The notes beneath the pieces are model-generated. The model did no database searches. It saw only the letters and a list, made by a program, of their open reading frames with translations, and was not told the origin of the DNA. The position numbers were made by a program, and so were the translations under genes. Shown here piece after piece: positions 3,273 through 52,500 of a stretch of 64,000 nt of DNA. The stretch's first letter is position 1. The number at the start of each line of letters is the position of its first letter. This DNA is from Microvelia longipes (Eukaryota; Arthropoda; Insecta; Hemiptera; Veliidae): contig JACMZG010001914.1 of assembly GCA_018340805.1 (NCBI GenBank), positions 47,688,263 to 47,752,262 of the forward strand, read 5' to 3'.

Positions 3273-5036
3273 CAAAATAGCGTAATTTTGAACTTCATAA
3301 AAAATTAAGATTAAAGTTTTATTTGATAAAATTAATTTTTTTAAAGTTTTTCTGAATCCAAAGAAGCCTAAACCACATCCGTGGCTAGCTCATTCCTCGA
3401 GACATTTCTTGTGAACATGCAAGCTTAAACAAAAATTAGCTCCTAAAATTTTTAAAATTAATTTTAAAATTTTTAAAATTAATTTTTAAGTTTTCATGAT
3501 TAGCAGGTTGTTCTAAAATACATACATTAAAATTAGCTTGGATAAAACTTAGTTAAAGTTTTATTTCTTTAAATTCTTCATTCATAGTTCAAAGCGAGTG
3601 CGCTCTAGTGTAAACTAAGGCTTTACAAATAAAGCTTATTTGTAAACTAGAGAAACAATAAGTGATGAAGATAATAAGTTCCTGTAATTGTAAGAAAATA
3701 CTTCTGTACTATTTTAGACATCGCCTATTATTTTTTTCTGTCCGCTTACAATTATTTTATTTGTTTTGATATATTATTAATTATTAATAATTATAATAAT
3801 AATTATTAATAATTATTATTAATTATTAAAGGTTCTTATATATAAGTTTTGAAATAAGAACCATTCGTTTGTCTTTTTCTGCGTTAATACCCTAGTTAGT
3901 AACTTTTAACAGATTTATCCCCCCTCCATCCTTTTGAAAAAGAAAAGCTGAGCTTTTTTTTTTGTAAAGTATTACAAAAAGATTTTTGTTAAAAAATGAA
4001 AGCAGTTAAGATTTTTTTGGCTCAAAAGTACATGCAGTAATGCAAGGGTGGATATTCGAGTCGGAATTTCTGTGGTTTTCAAAGTTGGAAGTACTTTTTT
4101 TACTTCCAAAAAAAAAGGTTGTCACTTGGGTCATTTGCCTCATTTTTTTTCAACTGCATTTTAAAGGGAGTAAAAAAAAGTTTAGTCCTTACAAGTCTTA
4201 CACGAGGCAAAAAGAAGGATGAAAATTATATTGTTTTAATGGTTTTAAGGACCTTTTTCTTAGCAGAATAAGAAATTTTCCTGAAGGAAGGTTTTTCTAA
4301 GACAGAGTGATACCTTTAAGCACCACTTTCCTTGAAACTTTTCACATAAAAGTATTAAAAAAAATATGGTGGCTGATTTTCTTATTGACAAAGGACTCTA
4401 GGGAAAAGTTTTACCAATATAAAGAAAATATATTAGAAAAACTTTTACTATTATGCAATATGTCTTAGTTTATTAACTATACTATGAATTAATCTATGTC
4501 AAAGAATAGTTATTCTACTCACTACTAAACTTTTTTATGAAATAAGTCCATTTTATACATAATTTTATCTAAAATTAATTACTTTACTATCTTCTACGTT
4601 GGAAGAAAGTGTAGTTATAGCCAAATGTGACACCTAATTTTTTTAACGAAGGTTTTAGCACCTACAGAGTACTTAAAATCGTTTTAGCATCTCGTTTATA
4701 GAGTATTTTGTGCGTCTGAAGTGTATTATTTCTTATACTTGATGCGCCATTATTAGAGGATTATTTATTGCCTATATTGTTGTCGTGTGCCTCTTTAGTT
4801 TTTTTTTTAATAATCAGTATACTACCAAGAATTATGTTTACAAAAATATAAAATTAAATAAATATAGTTAAAATTATAAATATAGATTTAAGCTAGTTTT
4901 AACATTTCTATCTTGAAATTATGCGGGGTAAAATAAATAAAAATTTTAGCCAGTTTTAACTTTTCTGTCGCTTATAAATCTATCTTGAAATCATACAGGG
5001 AAAACTTGTGTTCGTAGATCACTCGAGTGCCATTCC
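3273..5036. other. Intergenic, AT-rich
   Basis: No gene recognised. Holds AATTTTTAAAATTAA-type repeats near 3,450-3,485 and an almost pure ATTATTA palindromic tract at 3,770-3,832. Confidence 0.6.
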
Positions 5037-5382
5037 TCTATCCTATTTAGACGATTCTACTATCCTATTTAGACGATTCCACTATCCTATTTAGACGATT
5101 CTACTATCCTATTTAGACGATTCTACTATCCTATTTAGATGATTCTACTATCCTATTTAGATGATGCCACTATCCTATTTAGATGATTCCACTATCCTAT
5201 TTAGACGATTCTACTATCCTATTTAGACGATTCTACTATCCTATTTAGACGGACGATTATTATTTAGACGATTCTACTATCCTATTTAGACGATTATACT
5301 ATCCTATTTAGACGATTCTACTATCCTATTTAGACGATTCCACTATCCTATTTAGATGATTCCACTATCCTATTTAGACGAA
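5037..5382. repeat. 22-bp minisatellite
   Basis: About 15 head-to-tail copies of CTATCCTATTTAGACGATTC plus TA or CA. Variants are limited to GACGATTC, GATGATTC and GATGATGC. One unit near 5,250 is disrupted by a short insertion and loses CTATCC. High identity points to recent expansion. Confidence 0.95.
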
Positions 5383-6179
5383 CATCTGTATCGAGTTTAC
5401 CTTCCTATAAGTACATAGTCGCTGGATTAGCAAAAAGATTCCTTTGCCTGAAACAAATTTTTTAACATTAAATTTGTGAAGTAGTGCATGCTAAGAGTGA
5501 ACTGGTCCCACTAAGGGCAAAACAGAATAACTCTCATAGCTTGCTTTTTTGTAGGTTATACGTTCCTTAATACAGCGAATTAAACGACTAAAAATTGTCT
5601 TGTATGAGTTGTCTACTACCATTCTTTGATATTCTGAACGCTCACTAGGATCTTATTGAAAATGCCTTAAATAATTTGATTTAGAAAACGCCTCACAAGA
5701 AATAAAAATGTCTTGAAGTATCTGCATCTTAATTTAAAAAAAAAAAACATAAAAAGGAATGAAAATGTCTTAAAATATCAGAACCTTGATTTAAAAACAC
5801 CACACAAGGAATGAAAGGGTTTTAAAATATCATAATTTTGATTTAAATTTAGAAAACACCTCTAGAGAAAATGTGGGATAACTTAATTTCATTGGCTAAT
5901 TTTCAAAAATGACATTTCAAAGAAAATTAGAACAAGTGGGAAATCAGAAAGGGAAAGGTCGATTCCATTTTATCTGATTCCATAAGCGTAACACAGAGAA
6001 GTCCAAATTTCCTTCAGTTCATAATTTTGTGTGATCAGGAAAATTATGAACTACTAACGAAATTATGAAAATCATAAAATTATTAACAATTGCTTTCTGA
6101 AAATATCGTTTCTTGTTATGTATGATAATCATACTTACAATTCTTACTGTGGCGTTAGGTTTTTTTTGTATCATATTAC
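5383..6179. other. Intergenic, no gene seen
   Basis: No coding evidence. A loosely repeated phrase (AAAATGTCTTGAAGTATC, then AAAATGTCTTAAAATATC, then a third form) occurs at about 5,707, 5,763 and 5,815, suggesting an old ~55-bp triplication. Confidence 0.5.
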
Positions 6180-6215
6180 CTGATGATGCTGAGCTTTGCT
6201 TAGCAAAACATTGTA
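6180..6215 (+). ncRNA. Hammerhead-like core, solo copy
   Basis: CTGATGAT is followed by a 7-bp stem (GCTGAGC / GCTTAGC, one G-U pair, loop TTT), AAAA in place of GAAA, then CATTG and TA. The layout matches the foldback-arm motifs at 13,092, 21,151, 27,392 and 61,281. The first base of the conserved GAAA is changed, so cleavage activity is doubtful. A 3' segment ending in GGACTGCTGTCTTTATT follows at about 6,245. Confidence 0.5.
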
Positions 6216-7749
6216 TAAAGCTTTAAATTTAAATTAACAATACAGGACTGCTGTCTTTATTCAGTCCAAGAAAATAACTGTTTCAAATAACATTTAGAAT
6301 CAAAATAACATTATTTTCTATTATCTCTTAAAGACTTCATGTGCACTTAACCAGCACTCTCATAGCACTCAAGGAATCTAAGCTTGCACTCTAGACGTCT
6401 TACCTTGCCACTTAAAACATTTTAAATCTTAGGTTCTGACTTTAACACAGCTAATGAAACAGTAAATGCTTCAATAAAGTGCTCAGTTTGTGCTTTGTGA
6501 TTGTCAAGCTCTTCTTCTTTTAAGATTATCAATTAACGATAAATTTACATATTAAACTTAGAATCGTTGTATGTCGAGTTTATGAAAACTGGGTTTATCC
6601 GACTCATGTATTTACAATCGTGTGTTATACTCAAATCATAACCTCAATTTAAACTTCGGGGTTAAAAGATAACTCTTCACTTATTGACAAAGTCTAAATT
6701 AAATCTCCTCCCTTCATTGTGAGAACCGTAAGTTGAACAACTGTTAATTGTAAAGTTTAAAAGTCACCTCAGCCGATAGATATATTTTAGTTGAAAGACA
6801 TCTTTCTTTTTCTTCATGGAACTCCACACAAAATAGGTGGATACATTTTGTGTCCTTTTTTGCGGATTTTCAATTAAATGAACTTATGTTTTCTCCCTGG
6901 AACTCCACAACTCATTTGACTAACATTTTGAAATTTAAAAATTTTAACTCCCTCCCAAATACAAACTTGAGATTTAGGTGACCAAAACACTACAAAATTA
7001 AAAACTTACTATTACGCTCATGTTTTTATCCTCCCCGCAACCCTCTTTCTTACATCAAATAATAGTGCAGCCCCGTAAAAAAAGCATACAAGTGAAGTGA
7101 CTACCGAATCTGCTGTTTACTCAAAAAATGTCTCTGATCCTTAGCCTTACAAATCTTGCAAGCCTTAAAAATGAAAAAAATGTCTTAAAAATTACTGCTT
7201 CCTTTATAATTATTTATGCATAATTTATGATGGTTACACATTCTTTGTTTCAGGTATGGATAATGGTGTTTGATTGATACAAATTATTTTTAATAGTTGT
7301 AAGTAGGATTACACATTATATAATCACAGGATAGTATTTATTTTCTCAAATTTAACGATAAATAAGTTAAGAATTCTTTCCTAGAACTTTAATTAATCAT
7401 TGTTTATATTTTAATATTGCTTAGATTGTCACTCAAATATAATGTTAAAACAACCTGGGATATTAGAAACTAGGCTTCAACGTCTCGTTTATCTAAAGTA
7501 ATAAGAAACAAAAAGATCGCGTCCCACATTTTTAATTTTATGCTAGCCTCTTATACTTATTTAATGCATTATTTAACAATATTTATTAAATGCAAAATTG
7601 ACGCTATTTTCAGACACTGCGTTGGATTTCCTCTAAAATCTGATCGCAGTTTTTTCCCACATCAGACTTAAATTTTGAGTCAAGTTTCATTAATTTCACC
7701 TTTTAACGTTTATCAAAAACTTGAAAGTGAACACACACACAAACACGCT
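6216..7749. other. Intergenic, no gene seen
   Basis: AT-rich DNA without a recognisable gene, RNA or transposon protein. Confidence 0.55.
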
Positions 7750-8184: not shown

Positions 8185-10051
<1,867 letters not shown>

Positions 10052-29420: not shown

Positions 29421-30976
29421 TTTCCTAATAGTAACTATGGAATTCTGCAAAAAAAACGTTTCTCTCTTAAGAAGATATATAATTTTAAAATCATAAAGGC
29501 GAGCAGAATAAACCCCCTTAACAATTTAAAAGCTTTATTTTGTGATAGCTCTGCCCTAAAAGTACCTAAACCTGTTCATTTGGATTAACGGTCTGCCTAT
29601 CTATATGAGAAAGCAGTTTATGTCATATTAGCTTATTATTGTAGTACTTCATAAAATAATATAACTAAGGTATTAAATTTAAATTTTACAGTATACCTTA
29701 TTTCTCTTAATATGACATACTGACGTTAAGAAAATATAAAAAAATTATAATAAATTAAAAAGCCTATTTTTTATTAAAAAAGGAACAATTTTTAATGATT
29801 AAGACCTTTTCTAAATTTTCTTTTCAGTGAGGTAAAATTTTCAATAAAATTCATCTCATTTCCATGCTTCCTGCTCATCGTGGCTTACAATAGTCCCACC
29901 TGAGGCCTTTATATGTTGGAGGGGTATTTGAATTATAATGTGAAAATAATAAGAATAGGAGGGGGATTTTCACCGTATACACACTATTCCAGCACATACG
30001 ATAAATATACTCTTACTATACGCAGTTTTCAAAGTATTGAAATTTTCAAAGTAGGGGAAAAGAGGTTTTTTAAAAGGAAGGATTGTTTGCAAAATTAATA
30101 GCCTTATCAATTTGTACTTAGCGTGGAAGACCTCTATATTTCCTAGGCTGGCAATTTTCCCCTTTTTCCTAGATTGTAATATAAAACATTACTGCGGTAT
30201 CAACACGTTCAGGACTATGTGTTATAATTTCTACTTCCCGCCTCAAATTAAAGTCCCCTTTTAGTAAAACTTATTATAAACGCGTTAAGAGTTTTTAACA
30301 CAGAGCTGGGGTTGACAAAGAGTTGTTTGATATAATACCCTAGATTATCATATTTTACTATAGCAAATATTTCAGTTGCATTTTAAAATATTCTAAGTGC
30401 AGGTATTAAATATTAAAATGGATAATTTTATTTTAGCGAATTTTCATGCGAAATGACGCCTGTAAAATTTTCTGGATGACGGAAGTACAGGTAGAGGGCT
30501 GCTGCCACTTAGTCTCCTGATTTTAAAAATATAAATCTTAAAAAAGTTTGTATATCAGTGTTATATTAAAATGTAAACAGCTGTCTCCAAAAACATAATT
30601 TTGAGTTATAAGAATATGTCTGATCTTGATGAGCAAGTGAATTAATTTGTTCAATACCTTTCTAGTATAACCTGTTGATTTTACATTCCATATACTTGTT
30701 TTTGTTTTTCTTTACTAAAATTATTGTTTTAAATTATATTGCAAATTATTTAATTCTTTTACAGCATTATTTTACTACCTTTTATATTAATTTATTTGAC
30801 CTTAAGTTTATAACTTCGTGAGACAATTCTATTTTCGTAAGTCTATAGGACCATATTTCTCCTTTTAATGAAAAGGATTTAGTTTTGGTGAACCTGCAAT
30901 GTTTATCTGGTATATTGGTAAAACGCTTATAAATCAAGCATGAAGCCATCTTGAGCCCAATAAGATAAGATAGCCT
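29421..30976. other. Intergenic, no gene seen
   Basis: No gene recognised. Short frames at 29,913-30,098 and (minus) 30,782-30,979 lack any family signature. Confidence 0.5.
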
Positions 30977-32092
30977 CATGCTAGGTTGAAAACGCTATGC
31001 CAATACAAAACTCATGCTAGTTGAAAGCGCTAATCCAATACAAACTTCATGCTAGTTAGAAGCGCTATGCCAATATAAAAACTCATGCTAGGTTGAAAGC
31101 GCTATGCCAATACAACAACTCATGCTAGTTGAAAGCGCTAATCCAATTTCATGCTAGGTTAGAAGCGCTATGCCAATATAAAAACTCATGCTAGGTTGAA
31201 AGCGCTATGGCTAGTTGAAAGCGCTAATCCAATACAAAACTTCATGCTAGGTTAGAAGCGCTATGCCAATATAAAAACTCATGCTAGGTTGAAAGCGCTA
31301 TGCCAATACAACAACTCATGCTAGTTGAAAGCGCTAATCCAATACAAAACTTCATGCTAGGTTAGAAGCGCTATGCCAATATAAAAACTCATGCTAGGTG
31401 AAAGCGCTATGCCAATACAAAAACTCATGCTAGTTAAAGCGCTAATCCAATACAAAACTTCATGCTAGGTTAGAAGCGCTATGCCAATATAAAAACTCAT
31501 GCTAGGTTGAAAGCGCTATGCCAATACAAAAACTCATGCTAGTTGAAAGCGCTAATCCAATACCAAAACTCATGCTAGGTTAGAAGCGCTATGCCAATAA
31601 AAACTCATGCTAGGTTGAAAGTGCTATCCAATACAAAACTCATGCTAGTTAAAAGCGCTAATCCAATACAAAACTTCATGCTAGGTTAGAAGCGCTATGC
31701 AAAAAAACTCATGCTAGGTTATGCCAATAAAAACTCATGCGTTAAAGCGCTAATCAATACAAAACTTCATGCTAGAGAAGCGCTATGCATAAAACTCATG
31801 CTAGGTTGAAAGCGCTATGCCAATACAAAAACTCATGCTAGTTGAAAGCGCTAATCCAATACAAAACTTCATGCTAGGTTAGAAGCGCTATGCCAATATA
31901 AAAACTCATGCTAGGTTGAAAGCGCTATGCCAATACAAAAACTCATGCTAGGTTAAATGAGCAATGCCAATCAAAAAATGTATGCAAGGTTGAAAGAGCT
32001 ATGCTAATACAAAAACTCATGCTAAGTTAATAGCGCTATACCAATAATACAAAAACTCATGCTAAGTTAATAGCACTATGCCAATACAAATC
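30977..32092. repeat. 37-bp satellite with trimeric higher-order structure
   Basis: About 30 units built on CATGCTAGGTTGAAAGCGCT then ATGCCAATACAAAAACT. Three subtypes alternate: GGTTAGAAGCGCTATGCC with ATATAAAAACT; GGTTGAAAGCGCTATGCC with ATACAAAAACT; and GTTGAAAGCGCTAATCC with ATACAAAACTT. The order repeats about every 110 bp, forming a trimeric higher-order repeat. Units decay at the right edge (GCTAAGTTAATAGCGCT). Several units near 31,690-31,790 are shortened. Confidence 0.95.
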
Positions 32093-42228: not shown

Positions 42229-42292
42229 TGTCTGTCTGGTGCTTTTACTTAATCATTCTGTAGAAAGATTAAGTAAAAGCACCACACAGACA
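42229..42292. repeat. Near-perfect palindrome, 26-bp arms
   Basis: TGTCTGTCTGGTGCTTTTAC plus TTAATC pairs with its reverse complement at 42,267-42,292 with one mismatch; loop of 12 nt. Confidence 0.95.
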
Positions 42293-42336: not shown

Positions 42337-42547
42337 TACGATGAGACTGCTCTTAGAACTTACAATGCAAAGACTAAATTTTCTTACTCAGCTTTTGTAG
42401 TGCTAACATCGTAGTTAAATAGCTTCAATAGTTTAGTTTTGTAATAGTAATCAATTTAAATTAGACAATAGTTTTTATAAATCTCTGTTATTTCGTAATC
42501 TTAATTAGTTACTTATTATTTTATCTACTTATAAATTTACGTTTTTA

Positions 42548-43186
42548 ATGACATTATTTTCAAACTCAAATCTTTATTTAATACCCGAATTTGAAGAAGA
42601 AGACTACAACATCACGGGCTCTGCTAAAATCACTGAAACGAAAATGGATAGTGTAACAGCCATCACAAATAATATTCAAACAGACTTAGGTGAGTTAAAA
42701 ACCCTAAACTCGCATTTTAAAAACTGGGCTACATGTGAGGTTGAAAAGAGAAAAGTGCGATCATCTGAAGTTCGCTTTGATCAATTTATCGATCAAAATA
42801 ATAAGCTTTCTCTAACAATAGCTCAATTAGAAGAACATGTAAAAATGCTGATAGGGCTTTACTCTCCTTCCTCTAATTCAGTATTAGAGAGAAAAATTGA
42901 TGCGTTGGCTGAAAAAATAGAGTCAAATATTCCCGTAAAGCCGAGCTATGCGGAAATACTGTCAACAAACTTTAATAAAAAAATTAAATCTGATAACCTA
43001 GTAAACATAAATAAAATATTGCCAAAACAAGACGTATTAATTATAAAACCAAAAACACCGAAGGGAACAGAAGATGAAATAAATAAATACACCAAAGAGG
43101 ACATAAAAAAACAATTTGATAATAAAAATGACCTGAAAGTCAAAAAGTCAAAAACGGTTAAAGGTGGGGAGTCCTTCTTATCTTAG
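42548..43186 (+). pseudogene. LINE ORF1, N-terminal part (coiled coil)
   Basis: A 212-codon frame from ATG. Residues about 30-125 are charged, heptad-like and free of proline except near 107, consistent with a coiled coil that would trimerise an RNA-binding ORF1 protein. PSYAEIL at 132-138 matches a short motif common before the RRM in Jockey/R1 ORF1 proteins. VLIIKPK (163-169) looks like the first RRM strand. It ends at a stop in the RRM-like region (KTVKGGESF); downstream the protein continues in another frame, so a frameshift lies near 43,185-43,210, next to an AGAAAGAAAAA run. Probable role: chaperone and RNA packaging in the RNP. Confidence 0.75.
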
Positions 43187-43199
43187 GTGATAAATCGGA

Positions 43200-43784
43200 G
43201 AAAGAAAAATTATAAATAGTGACCTCATAAAATCAGGGAAATACACGGCATCCGAACCTATAAAGAAAAGACCCAAATTAATTTTTGATGTCCCATCGGA
43301 TCTTTTACCAGAAGAAATCATAGAAAACATAAAAAATAAAAATCCACACATTTTTCCTAATAGTTCTGATGTGGATGAATCTATAACACCTAGATTCAAA
43401 GTGGGGCCAAGAAATAGAGAATCGGTTCATTGGGTAGTTGAATGTGACCCACAAACTAGAAGGTCAATTTTAAATGAAGGTCACATCTATATAGAATGGA
43501 CATCTTGCAGAGTGAAAGACTACATAGTAGCCTCTCGCTGTTATAAATGTCAACAATTTTATCATGTGGCCAAATACTGCAAACTAGACGGTGAACCAAA
43601 CTGTGCACACTGTGCTGAGAGGCATGATGTGAAAAATTGCCCTAATCTAAAAGGCAAACCAAAGTGTTACAATTGTAAAAAATCGGGAAAACCAGATGAG
43701 CATAGAGCAAATGATGTAAACTGTCCAGGCCACATTAACGCTATCCAGCGAGAAATAAATAGGACTAACTATGGCACTGCTTAA
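43200..43784 (+). pseudogene. LINE ORF1, C-terminal part (CCHC zinc knuckles)
   Basis: The frame is open from 43,194 to the TAA at 43,782-43,784. It carries the second half of the RRM-like region (KLIFDVPSDLLPEEI; HWVVECDPQTRRSIL) and then three zinc knuckles: CYKCQQFYHVAKYC (CX2CX4HX4C, 43,539-43,580), CAHCAERHDVKNC (CX2CX3HX4C, 43,602-43,640) and a longer one, CX2CX8HX6C (43,665-43,724). This three-knuckle series is typical of Jockey/R1-type ORF1 nucleic-acid-binding proteins. An ATG at 43,771 in another frame overlaps the stop and may be a relic of the ORF2 start. Confidence 0.85.
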
Positions 43785-45700
43785 AAAATAATCTGGACTA
43801 GAGCAATTACAAATTGTAACACTTTTAATCATTACCCCAATAACACGAATAGAAGAACTATTGAACAAAAAAGTAAATTTCTGGTAACTAAGGAAACATC
43901 AAAAAGTAGAACATCAATTGTATACAACTTCGGTCAACATACAGATATTAATATCTCTTTTGCTACAAAATATGAAAGTAACTATAAATTATCAAAAGGC
44001 CTGTCTACAATATTAAAAACCAAGTATATAAAACAGAGAGAGAGACTAATATACTTGATTCTTACTCTACCTATACTTGCGACCTATCAACGAATCACGA
44101 AAATAAAATTATAATAATAAAATCAGATATTTATAATACATTCGAGAAATTCAAAAAAATCGTGAATGATTTAAATTATTGGGCTAAAAATAAATACCCG
44201 CTTGTGATTGGAGTTGATATCTTTGATTCACTGAATGATATATCCAGCTTAGAACTCCTAAGTTTAGTTACCGAAACAAACAATCTCAGATTTATTTTTT
44301 ATTATAAAGGCCTCGATACACTTAAATTCCTTAACATACCCATTCAGCACATTGAAAATAGTTCTGTTTACAATCTTCTACCTGCTACCAACAGACATGA
44401 AATCTTCATGAATAGCATGCTGGAGCTACGAAATTTACTATCTCAACGTGACCTCATAAACTCTATAAAATACCAACAAATATTAGAAAAACTAACTAGT
44501 AAAAACATTCTTGAATCAGCTAGAACTCTTAAAGAAGTCACTAGAAAAGGCATGAATATCTACAATAACTTCCAGAAACAATTTATCTGGCATACAAAAA
44601 ATACATATAGAATGGGTTACTGCCTGCAAAATAATGGATCTTACGTATCTTTTAATGAAAATGAAAACAAGTTTATGACATCAGAGAAATATATATTAGT
44701 AACACAGGATACCCAACTAATGCTTGATGGAGAACTAATATCTAAAATAAGTAAAATAAACATTGCTAGTTGTAAACTTCCTAATATCAAGTGGATCGAC
44801 GGAGTACCTGGTTGCGGCAAGACTCATTTTATTTTAAATGAACATACACCTGGACAGGATCTAATACTAACTCAAACAAGAGCAAACCTTAAAGAAATTA
44901 GAACATCCTTAAGGAATAATAATGAAATTAAGTATAAGAGAAGGCTCGAAAAGGACTACAGAACTGTTTCGTCATTCATTATTAACGGTTCGGACAAAAA
45001 GTAACGAGTCTTTATAGATGAGGCAATACTTATGCATGCCGGTTATGTTGGTTTCATTTCTGAACTATCGAAAGCTAAAGAAATAATATTACTCGGTGAT
45101 GGAAATCAAATACCATACATTGAAAGATCTTCCTTACCATCAGAGTGGTCCAACATTTCACAGTTCTGTAGCCCTAGTTTGACCCTTTCTGTTACTAAAA
45201 GATGTCCTTTAGATGTATGCTATCTTCTATCTGACTATTATAAAGACATTAAAACAACGAACCAACGAACTCGCTCCATCAGACCGACTATTACAGACGG
45301 AAGTCAACATCAACTGAAATCAGACACCCTTATACTGACCTTTACACAAACGGAAAAAAATATGGTTATTGAAGCTTTAAAAGGAAAATGTTATGGACCC
45401 ATACTAATTCATACTATACATGAAGCTCAGGGATTAATATCGAAACATGTAGTACTTATAAGAACAAACATAAAACACTTGGATGTTTATGAAAGCTTAC
45501 CGCATATTATAGTAGCTCTAAGCAGACATACTTATAGTTTTAGGTATTTGACAACTGTTTCTAATGATTTCATGACTTCACTAACAAACAGAATACAAAA
45601 TACTAGTGACGTTTTTATCAAGAACTACAAACATACGGATTATATAGGGCCTTTAAATAGAATAGAAGCAACGAAAATATTAATACCAACATCACCATGA
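43785..45700 (+). pseudogene. LINE ORF2: virus-type superfamily 1 RNA helicase
   Basis: The coding path is about 1.9 kb with two lesions: a frame change near 44,036 in an (AG)n run, and an in-frame TAA at 45,002-45,004. The C-terminal half has the full SF1 series seen in alphavirus-like RNA viruses. Motif I GVPGCGKT at 44,801-44,824; Ia LILTQTRANL; II FIDEA with DEA at 45,017-45,025; III GDGNQIPYIER at 45,095-45,127; a TKRCPLD segment; V HTIHEAQGL near 45,412; VI IIVALSRHT near 45,505-45,531. The N-terminal part (to about 44,300) has weak macro-domain-like spacing (LSKGLSTILKTKY; FEKFKKIVNDLNYWAKNKYP); treat that as speculation. Expected activity: NTP-driven unwinding of RNA or RNA-DNA. It sits between ORF1 and the EN-RT ORF and is read in the same direction. 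Confidence 0.85.
45697..45700 (+). promoter_or_regulatory. ATGA stop-start overlap between ORF2 and ORF3
   Basis: The ORF2 stop TGA (45,698-45,700) overlaps the ORF3 ATG (45,697-45,699). Such overlaps are used for termination-reinitiation in several LINEs and viruses, and here it is intact. It argues that the helicase and EN-RT frames evolved as one transcription unit, not as a chance insertion. Confidence 0.7.
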
Positions 45701-46821
45701 CAGCGACGACCCAAATTATGTCGGACCCTATTATTAACCATGACATAGAGACTGTAGAATTAGAAGATTATAACCTTAAACCTTTAATTAAAACTACCAA
45801 GTCGTTCATTAATATACTTAGTATAAATATCTGCAGTCTAGAGAAACATTATGATGAATTAGCAATACTTCTCGAATCAATAAATAAAGACGTACACTTA
45901 GTAGTATTAACAGAAACTTGGCTTAGAGTATTCCCTGAAAACTTATCACTACCTGGCTATATACCCATACCTGTAAATGGACAATTTAATAAAGCCGATG
46001 GAATAGTAGCTTTTGTAAAATACGATCTCCAATTAATATCTAGGCAAGAAAACCCGGTAGATCAATGTGCCAGTCTTCAATTTAAATTTAAAAATAATCA
46101 AAACAAAGTTTTTAGCGTAACCTTAATTTACAGATTATGGGGCTATAGCCTGGATCTATTTAATGCCTCTCTATATAATCATTTAAACAGTATAACAAAT
46201 GAAAATCATATAATATTAGGCGATTTTAATATTGATATTAAATCAGATAAATATAATTCACATACTGAAGAGTTTACCACTATGATGGCCCAATTTGGAT
46301 ACTATTCAAATATAAATACCTATACCAGAGTTCACAAAAATAGTAAATCCTGTTTAGACCATATTTGGACTAAACATAAAGAAACACTTAATACTATATC
46401 ATATAAATTAAATAGTAAAATAACAGATCATTTCCCAGTAGGAATAATATATAAATTTAACAACTGTGAAAACAAAGTTTCTGATAAAAAAAAGTTTTTT
46501 ATGAATAAAATAGATCTACCCAATCTTATTATCGAAGTAAACAACTTATCCTGGGAAAAATTATATGGCAATAACAATACAAACGAAATTGCATCTTATT
46601 TTATTAATACATTAAAAACTTGTATCAATAATCACACGAAAACTATAAAACTTAATAGGAAATTCATAAAAAGAAAACCATGGATAACTAAAAGTATAAT
46701 GGAGAGTATAGTGACTAGAGATAAAATGGCCAATCAAATCGACAAACAACCTAAAAATGATGACTTGAAATCTGCTTATAAAAAATATAGAAATCAGTTA
46801 AGTAAAATAAAAAATTGCTAA
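45697..46821 (+). pseudogene. LINE ORF3, AP endonuclease domain
   Basis: A 374-codon frame. Residues about 38-255 form an exonuclease-endonuclease-phosphatase (APE-type) domain with expected landmarks: Asn44 in LSINICSL, Glu73 in LTETWL, Tyr145 in IYRLWG, Asp176/Asn178 in LGDFNID, Asp221-His222 in CLDHIW, and Asp244-His245 in ITDHFPV. This enzyme nicks target DNA to prime reverse transcription. The remainder (KPWITKSIM through YKKYRNQL) is the linker found before the RT in Jockey/CR1-type ORFs. The frame breaks at 46,819-46,821; the linker continues in another frame, so the stop is a lesion. All catalytic positions look intact in this part. Confidence 0.9.
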
Positions 46822-47868
46822 AAATCAATATCTTACAAACGAAAAAAATCAGCTGGTAGCAATAATTACAAAACTTGGCAAATTATAAATGAGTCATTAG
46901 GAAGAAAAAAAAACCAAACTGAAATACGGGAGCTTAAACTACAATCCGGCAATACATTAGTTGATAACCAGGATATTACCAATGAATTAAACAGACATTT
47001 CTCTAGTATAGGTGAATCACTTGCTGATGAACAGAAAAATTACTGTGATTGTAGTTTAGACTCTAGTACGAGACATCTACCTAACATACCTGACTCTATA
47101 GTATTGCTACCAGTTACAGAGACTGAAATAACAACCACATTAGACAGCTTAAAAATATAAAGCCCAGGCTTAGATGAGATAACAACAAAACTTATAAAAT
47201 CTTGCCAAGACAGTCTAGCTAAACCACTTGTTCATATATTTAATTCAGCTTTTGATACTGGAGTCTTCCCCTGTATTTTTAAAAATGCTGTTATTATCCC
47301 TTTATTTAAAGAAGGTAGTAAATCAGACGTTATGAACTACCGACCAATATCACTTTTACCCACTGCAGCTAAGCTATTGGAAAAATGCATTGAAAATAGA
47401 CTTACACCATACTTTGAAAAGCATAAGATATTTCCAAAGACTCAATACGGATTTCAAAATAATAAAAGCACTGACGACGCTATTATGACGTTAACCAGAT
47501 ATATTACCACTAAATTAGATAAAAACAAAAAAGTAATTGCAGTTTTCTTAGACTTAAAAAAAGCGTTCGATACGGTAGACCAAAAGAAATTAATAGAAAA
47601 ACTGCAATACTACGGCATTAGAGGTAAAGTGTTAGATTTACTGACCGACTACATTACTAACCGACAGCAACAAGTTAAACTACTTAACCAACTTAGCTAT
47701 TGAACAAAATTAAATACAGGAACCCCACAGGGAACTGTTTTATCTCCTAAATTATTTCTAACTTATATAAATGACCTATACAACATCCCAAATTTCTTAG
47801 GGGAAATTGGTTTTGCAGACGACACTTGTTTATTATTTTCACAGAAAAAGAAACTTGGCAACAACTAA
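46822..47868 (+). pseudogene. LINE ORF3, reverse transcriptase domain
   Basis: After two compensating shifts (46,807-46,870) the same frame resumes, with TWQIINESLG, DITNELNRHFSSIGESLADE and a KSP-DEI-type segment containing an in-frame TAA (47,158-47,160). RT blocks follow: MNYRPISLLPTAAKLLEKCI (47,332 on), TQYGFQNNKSTDDAI, the catalytic FLDLKKAFDTVD (47,546-47,581), an in-frame TGA at 47,701-47,703, NTGTPQGTVLSP, and GFADDTCLLF with the catalytic Asp pair at about 47,815. FADD replaces the commoner YADD. The block order and spacing fit Jockey/CR1-superfamily LINEs. Inactive in this copy because of the stops. Confidence 0.9.
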
Positions 47869-48663
47869 TATCTCATGTTGAACAACAACTATCTCTCATA
47901 AGTAAATGGTTGCATACAAACCTATTATTTCTAAATACTAAAAAAACTAAATTTATAACCTTTTCGATCTCAAAAACAGGACAACCTACGCAGACTAATA
48001 AACTAAAATACACGACTGTAAGTGCAGCCGACTAAATAACCATACGGATTCAAATTGCAACTGCACTTCAATAGACAGAGTTTCGTCCATCAAATACTTA
48101 GGAGTAACCATAGACCAGAATCTGACATGGAAACGCACATCAAAATACTAACAAAATTCGAAAATTCATTTACTATTTCAGATCCCTAAGAGATTCTGCG
48201 ACAACATCTTGATGAAAAGGATTTACCACGCTTTAGTGGAATCTGTTCTCAGCTACGGTATAATTGGGTGGGGTTCTGCTAACCCTACACACTTATACTC
48301 ATTAGAAATAGCACAGAAAGCCGTGATAAAACTATTCTCAAAAAACCAAGACTTTACCCCACGGACCAGTTATTTAGAGACTTTCCAGTCCTCACAGTAA
48401 AAAATTTATTTACTAAACAAGTGCTACTAAAATATTTAATGAAAAAAAAGACTATATTAATCACGATCATAGTACAAGAAATAAAACAAAGAAAAGTCAA
48501 AACAGTTAAATGTAGAACATTATTGTTGCAGCGTCAGGCTTTTGTGGGACCTATTCTTTTAATACGCTACCCGATCATATTAAAACTAACTTACTATAAA
48601 GATTACAAAAAAGAAATAATAGAATGGATTAACCCTCCACCACTAGACAAACTTATTAAAAAA
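47826..48663 (+). pseudogene. LINE ORF3, RT thumb and C-terminal region
   Basis: A frameshift at about 47,840 (in CAGAAAAAGAAAC) moves the protein into a new frame: QQLSLISKWLHTNLLFLNTK is the thumb region. Further shifts follow at about 48,015 and 48,150. The frame at 48,209 reads RIYHALVESVLSYGIIGWGS and LEIAQKAVIKLF, a conserved C-terminal block of these LINEs. The last part (48,421-48,666) reads VLLKYLMKKK and ends YKKEIIEWINPPPLDKLIKK, then stop. No RNase H domain follows. Confidence 0.8.
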
Positions 48664-48723
48664 TAATTATATATTTCCATCTTATTTATTAACTTTAAAT
48701 TTTATTCAGTTTACTTTATTTTA

Positions 48724-48910
48724 TGTATAGTATATATACATTATTTATTTATTTTTTATTTATTTATTTATTTTTTATTTATTTATTTATTTATTTTTTT
48801 TTTTTTTTATTTTATTTTATTTTATTTTATATTTTATTTATTTATTATTTATTTTTTTTTTTATTTTTTTATTTTTTTTTTTTTCTCTCTTTTCTTTTTT
48901 TTTAGCTTCT
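48724..48910. repeat. T/ATTT-rich low-complexity tract in LINE 3' UTR
   Basis: Runs of TTTA, TTTTA and T up to 12 nt. The Tyr/Phe-rich frame through it is not a gene. A C/T segment TTTTCTCTCTTTTC follows. Confidence 0.9.
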
Positions 48911-49035
48911 TTTAGAAATATTTCATATGAATTAAAGAAGAAAACGATTTATAAAAACTTATTTTTCTCTTATACTTAATTTCATTATAAAGTACTAACA
49001 AAAAGTAGCTTGAGAATAAAAATCTAAACGAAAAG

Positions 49036-49070
49036 CTAGCCACGCACAAGCCCTAAGCTTATGTGGCTAG
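49036..49070 (+). ncRNA. LINE 3' UTR hairpin
   Basis: CTAGCCAC and GTGGCTAG form an 8-bp outer stem; AAGC/GCTT can extend it after a small internal loop, closing on CCTA. It lies about 135 nt before the element's end, a position where some LINE RTs recognise their template. Function not shown. Confidence 0.45.
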
Positions 49071-49205
49071 TAAGATCTTATTTATAATCAAATGTCATTA
49101 GGAATAGATGAACTAAGACTTTTAGAGCCTTTATTAGGATTGTATTGCGTATTACTTTTGTATATTATTTTTTAAATAAAATTATTATTATTAAAAAAAA
49201 AAATA

Positions 49206-49690
49206 ATAATTTTTACTTTTCCTCATTTATACTGTTGATATATAGAAAAAGTATTGCAATTGAAGAACCAGGTACTGTCGATACTTGCTGCTTAACAGCA
49301 AGTATCGACGGTACCTGATTCTTCAATTGCTTCTTCAACTTGCAGTAAATATAACCTTTTTGAAAAGTTTTTTTTTTTTGCAAAAAGTACCGAAACCGAT
49401 ATGTCATCTGAATTATTCGATTCAGGTGTTTAAAACCTCACAAGTGGTTTTAAAAAAATTGTCTGTCTGTATAAGTGCGTATGCGTATATGTGTGTGTGT
49501 CTGTTATCATCGTATCTCCAAGTGTATTTATGCTGGAGGGTTAAGCCTTGGTACAAAAATAAATATTTGGTTTGAGTTATGCTATTAGGAGAATAATTTT
49601 TAGACCTATAAACATAGAGATATATTACTAGACGGGGCCTATTGGTTGAATTTTGAAATATCGAAAAAGTAACCTGACCACATTCGATTA
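49206..49690 (+). mobile_element. Family A, copy 2, interrupted
   Basis: Begins TTTTTACTTTTCCTCATTTA as in copy 3 (59,369), is interrupted by a foldback fragment (49,257-49,364), then continues with GAAACCGATATGTCATC, TTCAGGTGTTTAAAACCTC, CTGTTATCATCGTATCTCC and TGTATTTATGCTGG. It is truncated before the GCGAAGC hairpin region. Adjacent to the LINE 3' end. Confidence 0.75.
49257..49364. mobile_element. Foldback-end fragment nested in family A
   Basis: Arms CAATTGAAGAACCAGGTACT plus GTCGATACTTGCTG, and the inverse (49,296-49,329), around CTTAA, then CTTCTTCAACTTGCAGTAAA. Only the outer ends of the 21/27-kb foldback family are present; the ribozyme-like cores are missing. Confidence 0.8.
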
Positions 49691-51600: not shown

Positions 51601-52500
51601 TTTTTTTTTTTTTTTCTTTTTTTTTATTTTATTAATTTATTTAATTCTTTTTTGTTGTGCCTTCTTGTTATGTGTAGATATTGAGATTTAGATTGGCTAA
51701 ATTTTGCTTATTTTTATGTGCCCAGATGTTAATAGTCATAAGAGATTCATTGAAAATTGCCTCTAGTTCTTCTGCTGTTCTGGCAGCTGCCAAAAGAAGA
51801 TAGTCGTCGGTGAATGCTAGTCCTTGACAGTTGGGTGGTAAAACTAGTCGAAGTAATGAGTCGTACTGAATAATCCAGAAGCCGGGAACTGGAGGATCCC
51901 TGCGAGCAGCCGCAGCTAGGTTATCGGTTTTATAAACTGAATCAAATCTTGATTTACTTTTTCTGTTGGTGAAGTAGGATTGCACAAGGAGTAGGAGATT
52001 AGCTGGACATTTATTTTCTCTTAGTCGGTGGATGATCGTGGGCTGCCATGCAGCGTCAAATAAATACCCCTTCAATGACTGATATCAATGCGACATGCAT
52101 TTTAATTTCTAAATTAGCTTCAACAAAGTTTTTTAGTTCATTGTGGCGTCGGTGGGGCTGGTTTATGGTCTAAAACCAAATTGGCGATTGCTAAGAAGAT
52201 CGTTGAAATGAAGATAGAGCATAATTCGGTCTATCATCAAACGTTCAAATAATTTAGCTAAAGTCGAAAGTAAGCTTATTGGTCTGTATTGGCATGCATT
52301 TTTAAGTGAGATCGACCTGGTTTTTCTATCATAATTATTTTTGAAGTTTCCAACAAGTGGGAAATATAGCTCTTTTTAGGCATTCATTAAAGATGGCAGT
52401 AAAAAGGTTTGGTAAAATTTCAAAAGTATTTTTTTCAAGTATGGCAAGAGTAATGCCGTCTTCACCTGAGGCTTTATTAAGAGCGGCTTTTGTAAAACAA
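51601..52500 (-). pseudogene. R1-like LINE reverse transcriptase fragment
   Basis: Reading the minus strand from about 52,495: KAALNKASGEDGITLAILEK and LPNLFTAIFNECLKRAIFP, then (new frame) YRPISLLSTLAKLFERLMID, SNRQFGFRP, then FDAAWQPTIIHRLRENKCPA, LLRLVLPPNCQGLAF, TDDYLLL and NIWAHKNKQNLANL. This order (fingers, palm, TDD box, thumb start) fits R1-type LINEs. The PQG-type block is garbled (PPVPGFW), and at least two frameshifts and several stops occur. The coding part stops at 51,668 and a long T tract on the plus strand (an A tail for this strand) follows at 51,601-51,635, so the insert was polyadenylated in or just after the RT. Confidence 0.8.

Follow-up and report, generated by a model that had tools for sequence, protein, structure and literature searches.

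In the general view, a LINE needs no more than an RNA-binding ORF1 protein and an endonuclease–reverse transcriptase (EN-RT). An open reading frame (ORF) for a virus-type superfamily 1 (SF1) helicase in the middle of a LINE copy raises the question of whether the helicase belongs to the element, how it came to be there and what it might do. The copy considered here lies in a window of 64,000 nucleotides (64 kb) of the Microvelia longipes genome; the window holds this one copy, of about 6.8 kb (42381..49193, plus strand; family A), with an A-rich or (TTA)n tail after its 3' end.

A virus-type helicase between ORF1 and the EN-RT of a LINE

The three ORFs follow one another on the plus strand. 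ORF1 (42548..43784) is gag-like, with a coiled-coil-like region followed by a knuckle part, and is split here over two frames (42548-43186 and 43194-43784); its three CCHC-type knuckles, of the pattern C-x2-C...H...C, fall within 43539-43724 (43539-43580, 43602-43640 and 43665-43724). The second ORF (43785..45700) carries the SF1 helicase core (44801..45532, motifs I to VI). The third opens with an apurinic-type endonuclease domain and its motifs (45697..46818; PF03372 at 3.1e-10, PF14529 at 4.8e-7), continues through a linker and the reverse transcriptase (46822..47865, in pieces in this copy, with the FADD motif in 47704-47865) and ends in a broken C-terminal part (47866..48666). The RT matches PF00078 at 4.5e-19 on the same strand, downstream of the helicase, and EN and RT, the domains that define a LINE, are both present. 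The arrangement read in the initial annotation, with the helicase on the same strand between a three-knuckle ORF1 upstream and an EN-RT ORF downstream, was borne out. The element is probably a LINE of the Jockey superfamily with a CR1/L2-like EN-RT and three ORFs, and our confidence is high, mainly as regards structure, that a knuckle ORF1, an SF1 helicase ORF and an EN-RT ORF make up one LINE.

The five helicase motif strings reported at first sight are all present and in order on the plus strand (I 44801-44824, II 45011-45025, III 45095-45118, V 45419-45433 and VI 45515-45532). The profile search proposed with them placed PF01443 on 45005-45697 at 3.8e-25; the preceding stretch, 43988-45001, reached 6e-4 and 20.1 bits, slightly below the 21-bit cut-off. 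The solved structures nearest to 45005-45697 were 3wrx (5e-23) and 3vkw (8e-23), then 6jim (4e-7) and 7y38 (2e-6), and the helicase of another locus, L029, matched 3wrx/3vkw, annotated as 'Replicase large subunit' and presumably tobamoviral, with 126 bits at 1.6e-35. This virga-type replicase helicase, the best solved relative of the L029 protein, has the same motifs, but no methyltransferase or RdRp was found beside the helicase in our element. Predicted structures of two helicase pieces, with a mean pLDDT of 35 and 32, were too poor for use. Since none of 8155 stop-to-stop runs in the flanks reached 231 codons (the longest had 138), the helicase runs of 338 and 231 codons are not open by chance.

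Other features of the window include a stretch of 64 bases (42229-42292) that is 91% its own reverse complement and lies 89 bases before the LINE 5' end, and a fragment of another LINE's RT on the minus strand (51944-52360), 29% identical to the RT described here. Inverted arms of about 540 bases, 99.3% identical (8386-8927 and 9350-9889), mark a young palindromic or long-TIR element, and 30975-32090 consists of tandem repeats of about 107 bases, whose shifted self-matches are about 79-87% alike.

The helicase has its own start and stop

Initially 43785-45700 was taken as one ORF. The helicase protein was recovered, but not as a single open frame in the window copy: 43785-44114 is open in one frame, which we follow to about 44040, and 43988-45700 in another, interrupted by an in-frame TAA at 45002-45004. 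Codon usage alone was indecisive for the frame of 43791-44036; the frame-0 reading of 43785-44040 matches the open helicase ORF of L029, and hence belongs to the same helicase protein. In L029 this ORF is open for 708 codons, 686 of them counted from the first ATG, and it contains no N; its core occupies residues 385-638, and the 384 residues before the core gave no Pfam match above cut-off.

A fusion of ORF1 and helicase in a single frame had been suggested by the lack of a helicase-frame ATG before 44408 in the window and by an ORF1 frame that stays open past its stop. It is ruled out by an ATG that overlaps the ORF1 stop in the other frame, in L010 and in family B. The ORF after ORF1 in L010 opens at an ATG with a 14-nt overlap, equal to window 43771-43784, and continues for 279 codons; the probable start in the window is therefore the ATG at 43771..43773, ahead of the ORF1 stop at 43782-43784. 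Four family B copies have an ATG that overlaps the ORF1 stop by 11 nt, and further in-frame ATGs upstream, the first 50 nt before the ORF1 end. At the other end the helicase stop TGA (45698-45700) lies over the EN-RT start ATG (45697-45699), and this ATGA junction (45697..45700) is kept in every one of the 20 family A and B copies fetched, as well as in L029 and L033 (family D); in family C (L031 and L032) the two ORFs overlap by 11 nt instead. With its own ATG over the ORF1 stop and its own stop at the ATGA, the helicase is indeed the separate middle ORF that it had been claimed to be.

Part of the breakage of the window copy may be assembly error, as judged from the sequence differences between copies, since indels outnumber substitutions within family A. 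Frame breaks lie near 43187 in ORF1 and near 44040 in the helicase, and stops at 46819, 47158 and 47701 in the EN-RT. The TAA at 45002-45004 was found in none of the 18 other copies spanning the site and the frame change near 44040 in identical form in none of seven, while the run at the ORF1/helicase junction was the same in two of seven copies and the ORF1 stretch at the break near 43187 in two of the three spanning it. Family A copies differed from the window by 10.6 indel openings against 8.5 substitutions per kb, and family B copies from L029 by 5.1 against 7.7. Of the 360 distinct family A indel sites, 289 were singletons and a fraction of 0.42 lay near homopolymers (0.22 expected; 0.41 against 0.19 for family B). 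No fetched copy from family A or family B was seen in which all three ORFs are open.

The helicase is a built-in part of the mobile LINE

A DNA search of the genome (664.6 Mb) with the helicase gave at least 41 matches, with 40 of 60 candidates scored; those listed comprise 12 at 93% or more (the window included), 26 at 73-77%, two at 68% and one of 64 nt at 86%. The profile search, in which all 108 candidates were scored, gave 89 PF01443 matches. Twenty matches were fetched with their flanks, 10 from family A and 10 from family B, and LINE sequence beyond the helicase aligned in every one, with the helicase ORF lying just before the EN-RT ORF and overlapping it.

Family A copies share a 3' end, at 49189-49213 in all nine copies in which it lies inside the fetched stretch, and differ in 5' truncation: L009 and L014 start exactly at window position 42381 and most of the others begin further in. 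Since a common 3' end with variable 5' truncation is what a LINE leaves, the helicase is a built-in part of the mobile unit. Repeats around the copies were looked for as target-site duplications, and no convincing one was seen. Copies differ by about 0.8% substitutions, from which we infer that the element was recently active. The initial annotation held that copies lacking the helicase while keeping ORF1 beside the EN-RT would speak against its being part of the element; no close copy of that kind was seen, an absence to be read with the fact that loci L001-L033 were picked by the helicase itself. No relatives of the helicase or the RT were found in a viral contig collection, nor of the helicase in a genome contig collection.

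Helicase-free relatives carry a different ORF1

We also searched the genome with the RT, which gave at least 150 matches (150 of 6108 candidates scored). Pairing with the helicase used 79 of these, the 71 others being at 51% identity or less, and set them against 67 merged helicase loci from the profile and DNA searches. A helicase lay upstream of the RT in 6/7 matches at 90% RT identity or more, 22/34 at 66-89%, 3/4 at 60-65%, 2/8 at 56-59%, 0/15 at 50-55% and 0/11 below 50%, in identity bands to which frame breaks contribute as well as true divergence; of the five pairs below 66%, at least two (on contigs C531 and C496) sit at places of the 73-77% DNA group. The distance between RT and helicase was 1602-1711 nt in 30 of the 33 paired matches. 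At 66% or more, 28 of 41 RTs were paired, and the one examined of the 13 unpaired (L036) belongs to a LINE part that starts inside EN. Conversely, 34 of the 67 helicase loci had no RT partner among the RT matches listed.

Five helicase-free relatives were fetched, four of which extend to ORF1: L034 (60% RT identity), L039 (54%), L037 (52%) and L038 (48%); the fifth, L035, showed no ORF1 in the stretch fetched. These four place ORF1 beside the EN-RT without a helicase, but their ORF1 is of another type: Baculo_FP_2nd was above cut-off in all of them, together with a PHD finger that was above cut-off in L039, slightly below it in L034 and L037 and partial in L038. No knuckle match was listed in their ORF1, and the window and L029 helicase queries gave no match before their EN-RT. 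In L034, EN and RT share one open frame of 989 codons. One ORF1 type has been described for the Jockey lineage, and PHD ORF1s for CR1 and L2, in the accessible text of an earlier survey (PMC4120745), and the PHD ORF1 of the helicase-free relatives points to the CR1/L2 part of the superfamily.

ORF1 and helicase may have moved together between LINE lineages

Four families (A to D) with the same gene order were seen, and their halves gave different pictures of relatedness. In alignments anchored to the window, identity to family A in the helicase core was 65% for family C (L031), 69% for B and 66% for D, and in the knuckle part of ORF1 53%, 56% and 58%, respectively. In EN, it was 45% for C against 64% for B and 60% for D; the linker and RT part of C covers 115 positions. 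In its ORF1 and helicase, then, family C resembles A almost as closely as B and D do, but in its EN-RT it does not. Across these four families, in one noisy assembly, the pattern suggests a single 5' unit of ORF1 plus helicase, a cassette that could be exchanged and that moved between LINE lineages. Downstream of the family C copy in L032, at 4789-6290, frames resembling a Penelope-like RT and a GIY-YIG nuclease were noted by eye.

Maximum-likelihood distances bear on the main alternative, that there was no exchange: helicase and EN-RT would have been inherited together, the EN-RT of family C would merely have evolved faster and L034 would have lost its helicase. The identical gene order in all four families fits this, as does the position of family C, whose helicase is also the furthest from the others (0.90-0.97 to A, B and D, against 0.69 for A-B, 0.78 for A-D and 0.83 for B-D). 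Family C is, however, far more distant in the EN-RT, and the two halves diverge in opposite order: among A, B and D the helicase has changed more than the EN-RT (0.69-0.83 against 0.48-0.51), whereas between C and these three it has changed less (0.90-0.97 against 1.20-1.38). The EN-RT tree, which leaves out L030 (169 residues), splits A, B and D from the rest at 100/100 and joins C to the helicase-free L034 at 33.8/57, a weakly supported place that leaves room for common inheritance. A PHD/FP-type ORF1 in all four helicase-free relatives that reach ORF1 also speaks against this alternative. We regard joint inheritance as a serious possibility, with a somewhat less than even chance. Our tentative preference, to which we give a little less than an even chance, is that a CR1/L2-like LINE had its PHD/FP ORF1 replaced by a knuckle ORF1 with a captured helicase, a pair later exchanged between lineages with different EN-RTs.

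Selection on the helicase

Comparison of the window with 10 family B copies gave, for the C-terminal part of the helicase, a dN of 0.21 and a dS of 1.57 (ratio 0.13), and for EN a ratio of 0.09, at a dS near or beyond saturation; dS was not computable for the N-terminal part of the helicase, the knuckle part of ORF1 or the RT. Among unique variants within family B the helicase had 16 synonymous and 27 nonsynonymous changes and no stop (pN/pS 0.43, p=0.012), EN had a pN/pS of 0.26 (p=0.013) and the RT part five synonymous and no nonsynonymous changes. At the level of codon changes, this shows constraint on the helicase both between families A and B and inside family B.

Ratios of the window against family A are distorted by frame breaks, and unique-variant pN/pS was used instead. 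Here EN (0.28, p=0.0025) and RT (0.26, p=0.038) were both constrained, and the helicase, with five synonymous and 13 nonsynonymous unique variants (pN/pS about 0.7), was not different from neutrality; counts pooled over copies gave 1.1-1.6. These small numbers argue against strong recent constraint on the helicase in family A.

Relation to known helicase-bearing LINEs

Helicase LINEs of this kind are already known. The helicase does lie upstream as its own ORF, and the initial annotation had offered an independent capture or a different architecture, but it did not cite a 2017 report (PMC5563155) of LINEs of the Jockey family in which the helicase ORF and the EN-RT ORF already overlap by 2 nt. 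Those elements, from Hemiptera and Orthoptera such as Nilaparvata, Homalodisca, Gerris and Ceuthophilus (Morozov, Lazareva and Solovyev 2017, PMC5563155), resemble ours in that an ORF for an SF1 helicase of virus type directly precedes the EN-RT ORF. In the accessible text of that report, the helicase of the Nilaparvata lugens sequence AOSB01072940 has the full motif set, dozens of such sequences are given for that genome, and the 2-nt overlap, a stop codon over an ATG, can by deduction only be ATGA. The helicase ORF is there named ORF1 and is a single domain in AOSB01072940; the same text mentions no upstream knuckle ORF1, unlike here, and does not discuss helicase-free sister families or cassette exchange, both of which we describe.

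A viral SF1 helicase has likewise been captured by TRAS (R1-clade) LINEs of Lepidoptera (Lazareva 2015, PMC4686597). In the parts of that report available, it forms a C-terminal ORF2 domain behind a spacer of more than 300 aa, whereas in the window it is a separate ORF before the EN-RT, and the distinction drawn initially from the R1/TRAS arrangement was correct. Horizontal acquisition of whole ORF1s has been proposed as part of a reticulate evolution of the Jockey superfamily, again as far as the accessible text goes (Metcalfe and Casane 2014, PMC4120745); 'helicase' does not occur in its main text, and the piece exchanged here would be ORF1 plus helicase. In the open-licence literature we found no account of a helicase preceded by a knuckle ORF1, of relatives that lack the helicase and have a PHD/FP ORF1, of an exchange of an ORF1-helicase cassette, or of a family with a close ORF1 and helicase but a far-diverged EN-RT.

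Possible roles of the helicase

One transcript would carry all three ORFs, which would be translated by termination-reinitiation at their overlaps; AUGA is among the arrangements described for such coupling, a related one being used by the LINE SART1, according to the accessible part of one report (PMC5972666). The helicase would most likely join the ORF1 protein in handling the RNA of the element: by unwinding structured or double-stranded regions within the RNP it would ease both the loading of RNA and its reverse transcription, and it may also make Dicer-based silencing less effective. This role as a partner of RNA and ORF1 is the action that we favour, tentatively and with slightly less than even confidence. 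The accessible text of one report gives the helicase no more than an accessory part in retrotransposition (PMC6338049), and the published ideas, as far as the available parts of three reports go, are silencing suppression and aid to the RT (PMC4686597, PMC5563155, PMC6338049).

That the protein would mainly suppress silencing of the LINE by small RNAs (siRNA or piRNA), as has been proposed for TRAS helicases, seems rather unlikely. A Plutella LINE helicase moderately raised the cell-to-cell spread of a suppressor-deficient plant virus, but these observations are called preliminary by their authors in the accessible text (PMC4686597); the retention of motifs I-VI fits unwinding and is compatible with suppression too. 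Equally unlikely, in our estimate, is the role suggested in the initial annotation, in which the helicase would serve the RT at the target site by unwinding template RNA or RNA-DNA hybrids as target-primed reverse transcription proceeds. RNA-DNA duplexes are among the substrates that viral SF1 helicases can open, according to the accessible part of the 2017 report (PMC5563155), and the helicase ORF adjoins the EN-RT through the ATGA; against this, the cassette data link the helicase to ORF1, not to the EN-RT, and related LINEs manage without it.

A viral fragment in another LINE of the same genome

That the window helicase is an independent RNA virus fragment, an endogenous viral element lying by chance in a LINE copy, is extremely improbable and was ruled out by full-length copies that share it: although the domain is virus-like and the genome does contain one such insertion (L030), L030 has a viral RdRp attached and the window element has none, the helicase lies within LINE sequence in 20 of 20 fetched copies and is joined to the EN-RT start by the conserved ATGA, and neither attached viral sequence nor boundaries independent of the LINE, the latter of which the initial annotation would have read as a sign of such an insertion, were found.

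L030 itself (G000:C1361:29106900-29113900, minus strand) is a virga-like virus fragment in the ORF1 region of another LINE, which we read by eye from its EN sequence as being of R1 type. The fragment comprises a helicase, 34% identical to that of the window, and a partial RdRP_2 (PF00978, 6e-14 and 5e-14); it is preceded by a stretch that by eye resembles the other part of ORF1 and followed by the LINE knuckle part (zf-CCHC, 1.8e-4) and then EN. With a query of 1301 bases over its 3' border, the 1146 viral bases matched nothing beyond themselves and one other place at 69%, and the LINE part matched 22 other places at 92-99%. A virus-type helicase match was also seen at G000:C565:20117377-20119208, where 146 bases nearby are 69% identical to the L030 virus fragment and which may be a second endogenous viral element. 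On the same contig, a helicase match at G000:C565:23696343-23696723 lies inside an open frame of 1883 codons, which may be masked sequence or a fusion. L030 offers a picture of how the capture of a helicase by a LINE might begin.

Implications for LINE biology

If ORF1 and helicase do move as one cassette, the helicase would work alongside the ORF1 protein within the RNP, not alongside the RT, and LINEs could acquire a viral RNA-handling function through swaps of their 5' halves. Since helicase-bearing and helicase-free relatives occur in one genome, the role of a captured viral helicase is directly testable there. A helicase ORF constrained between families, together with a conserved stop-start junction, implies that an RNA-unwinding or anti-silencing step can be selected in LINEs.
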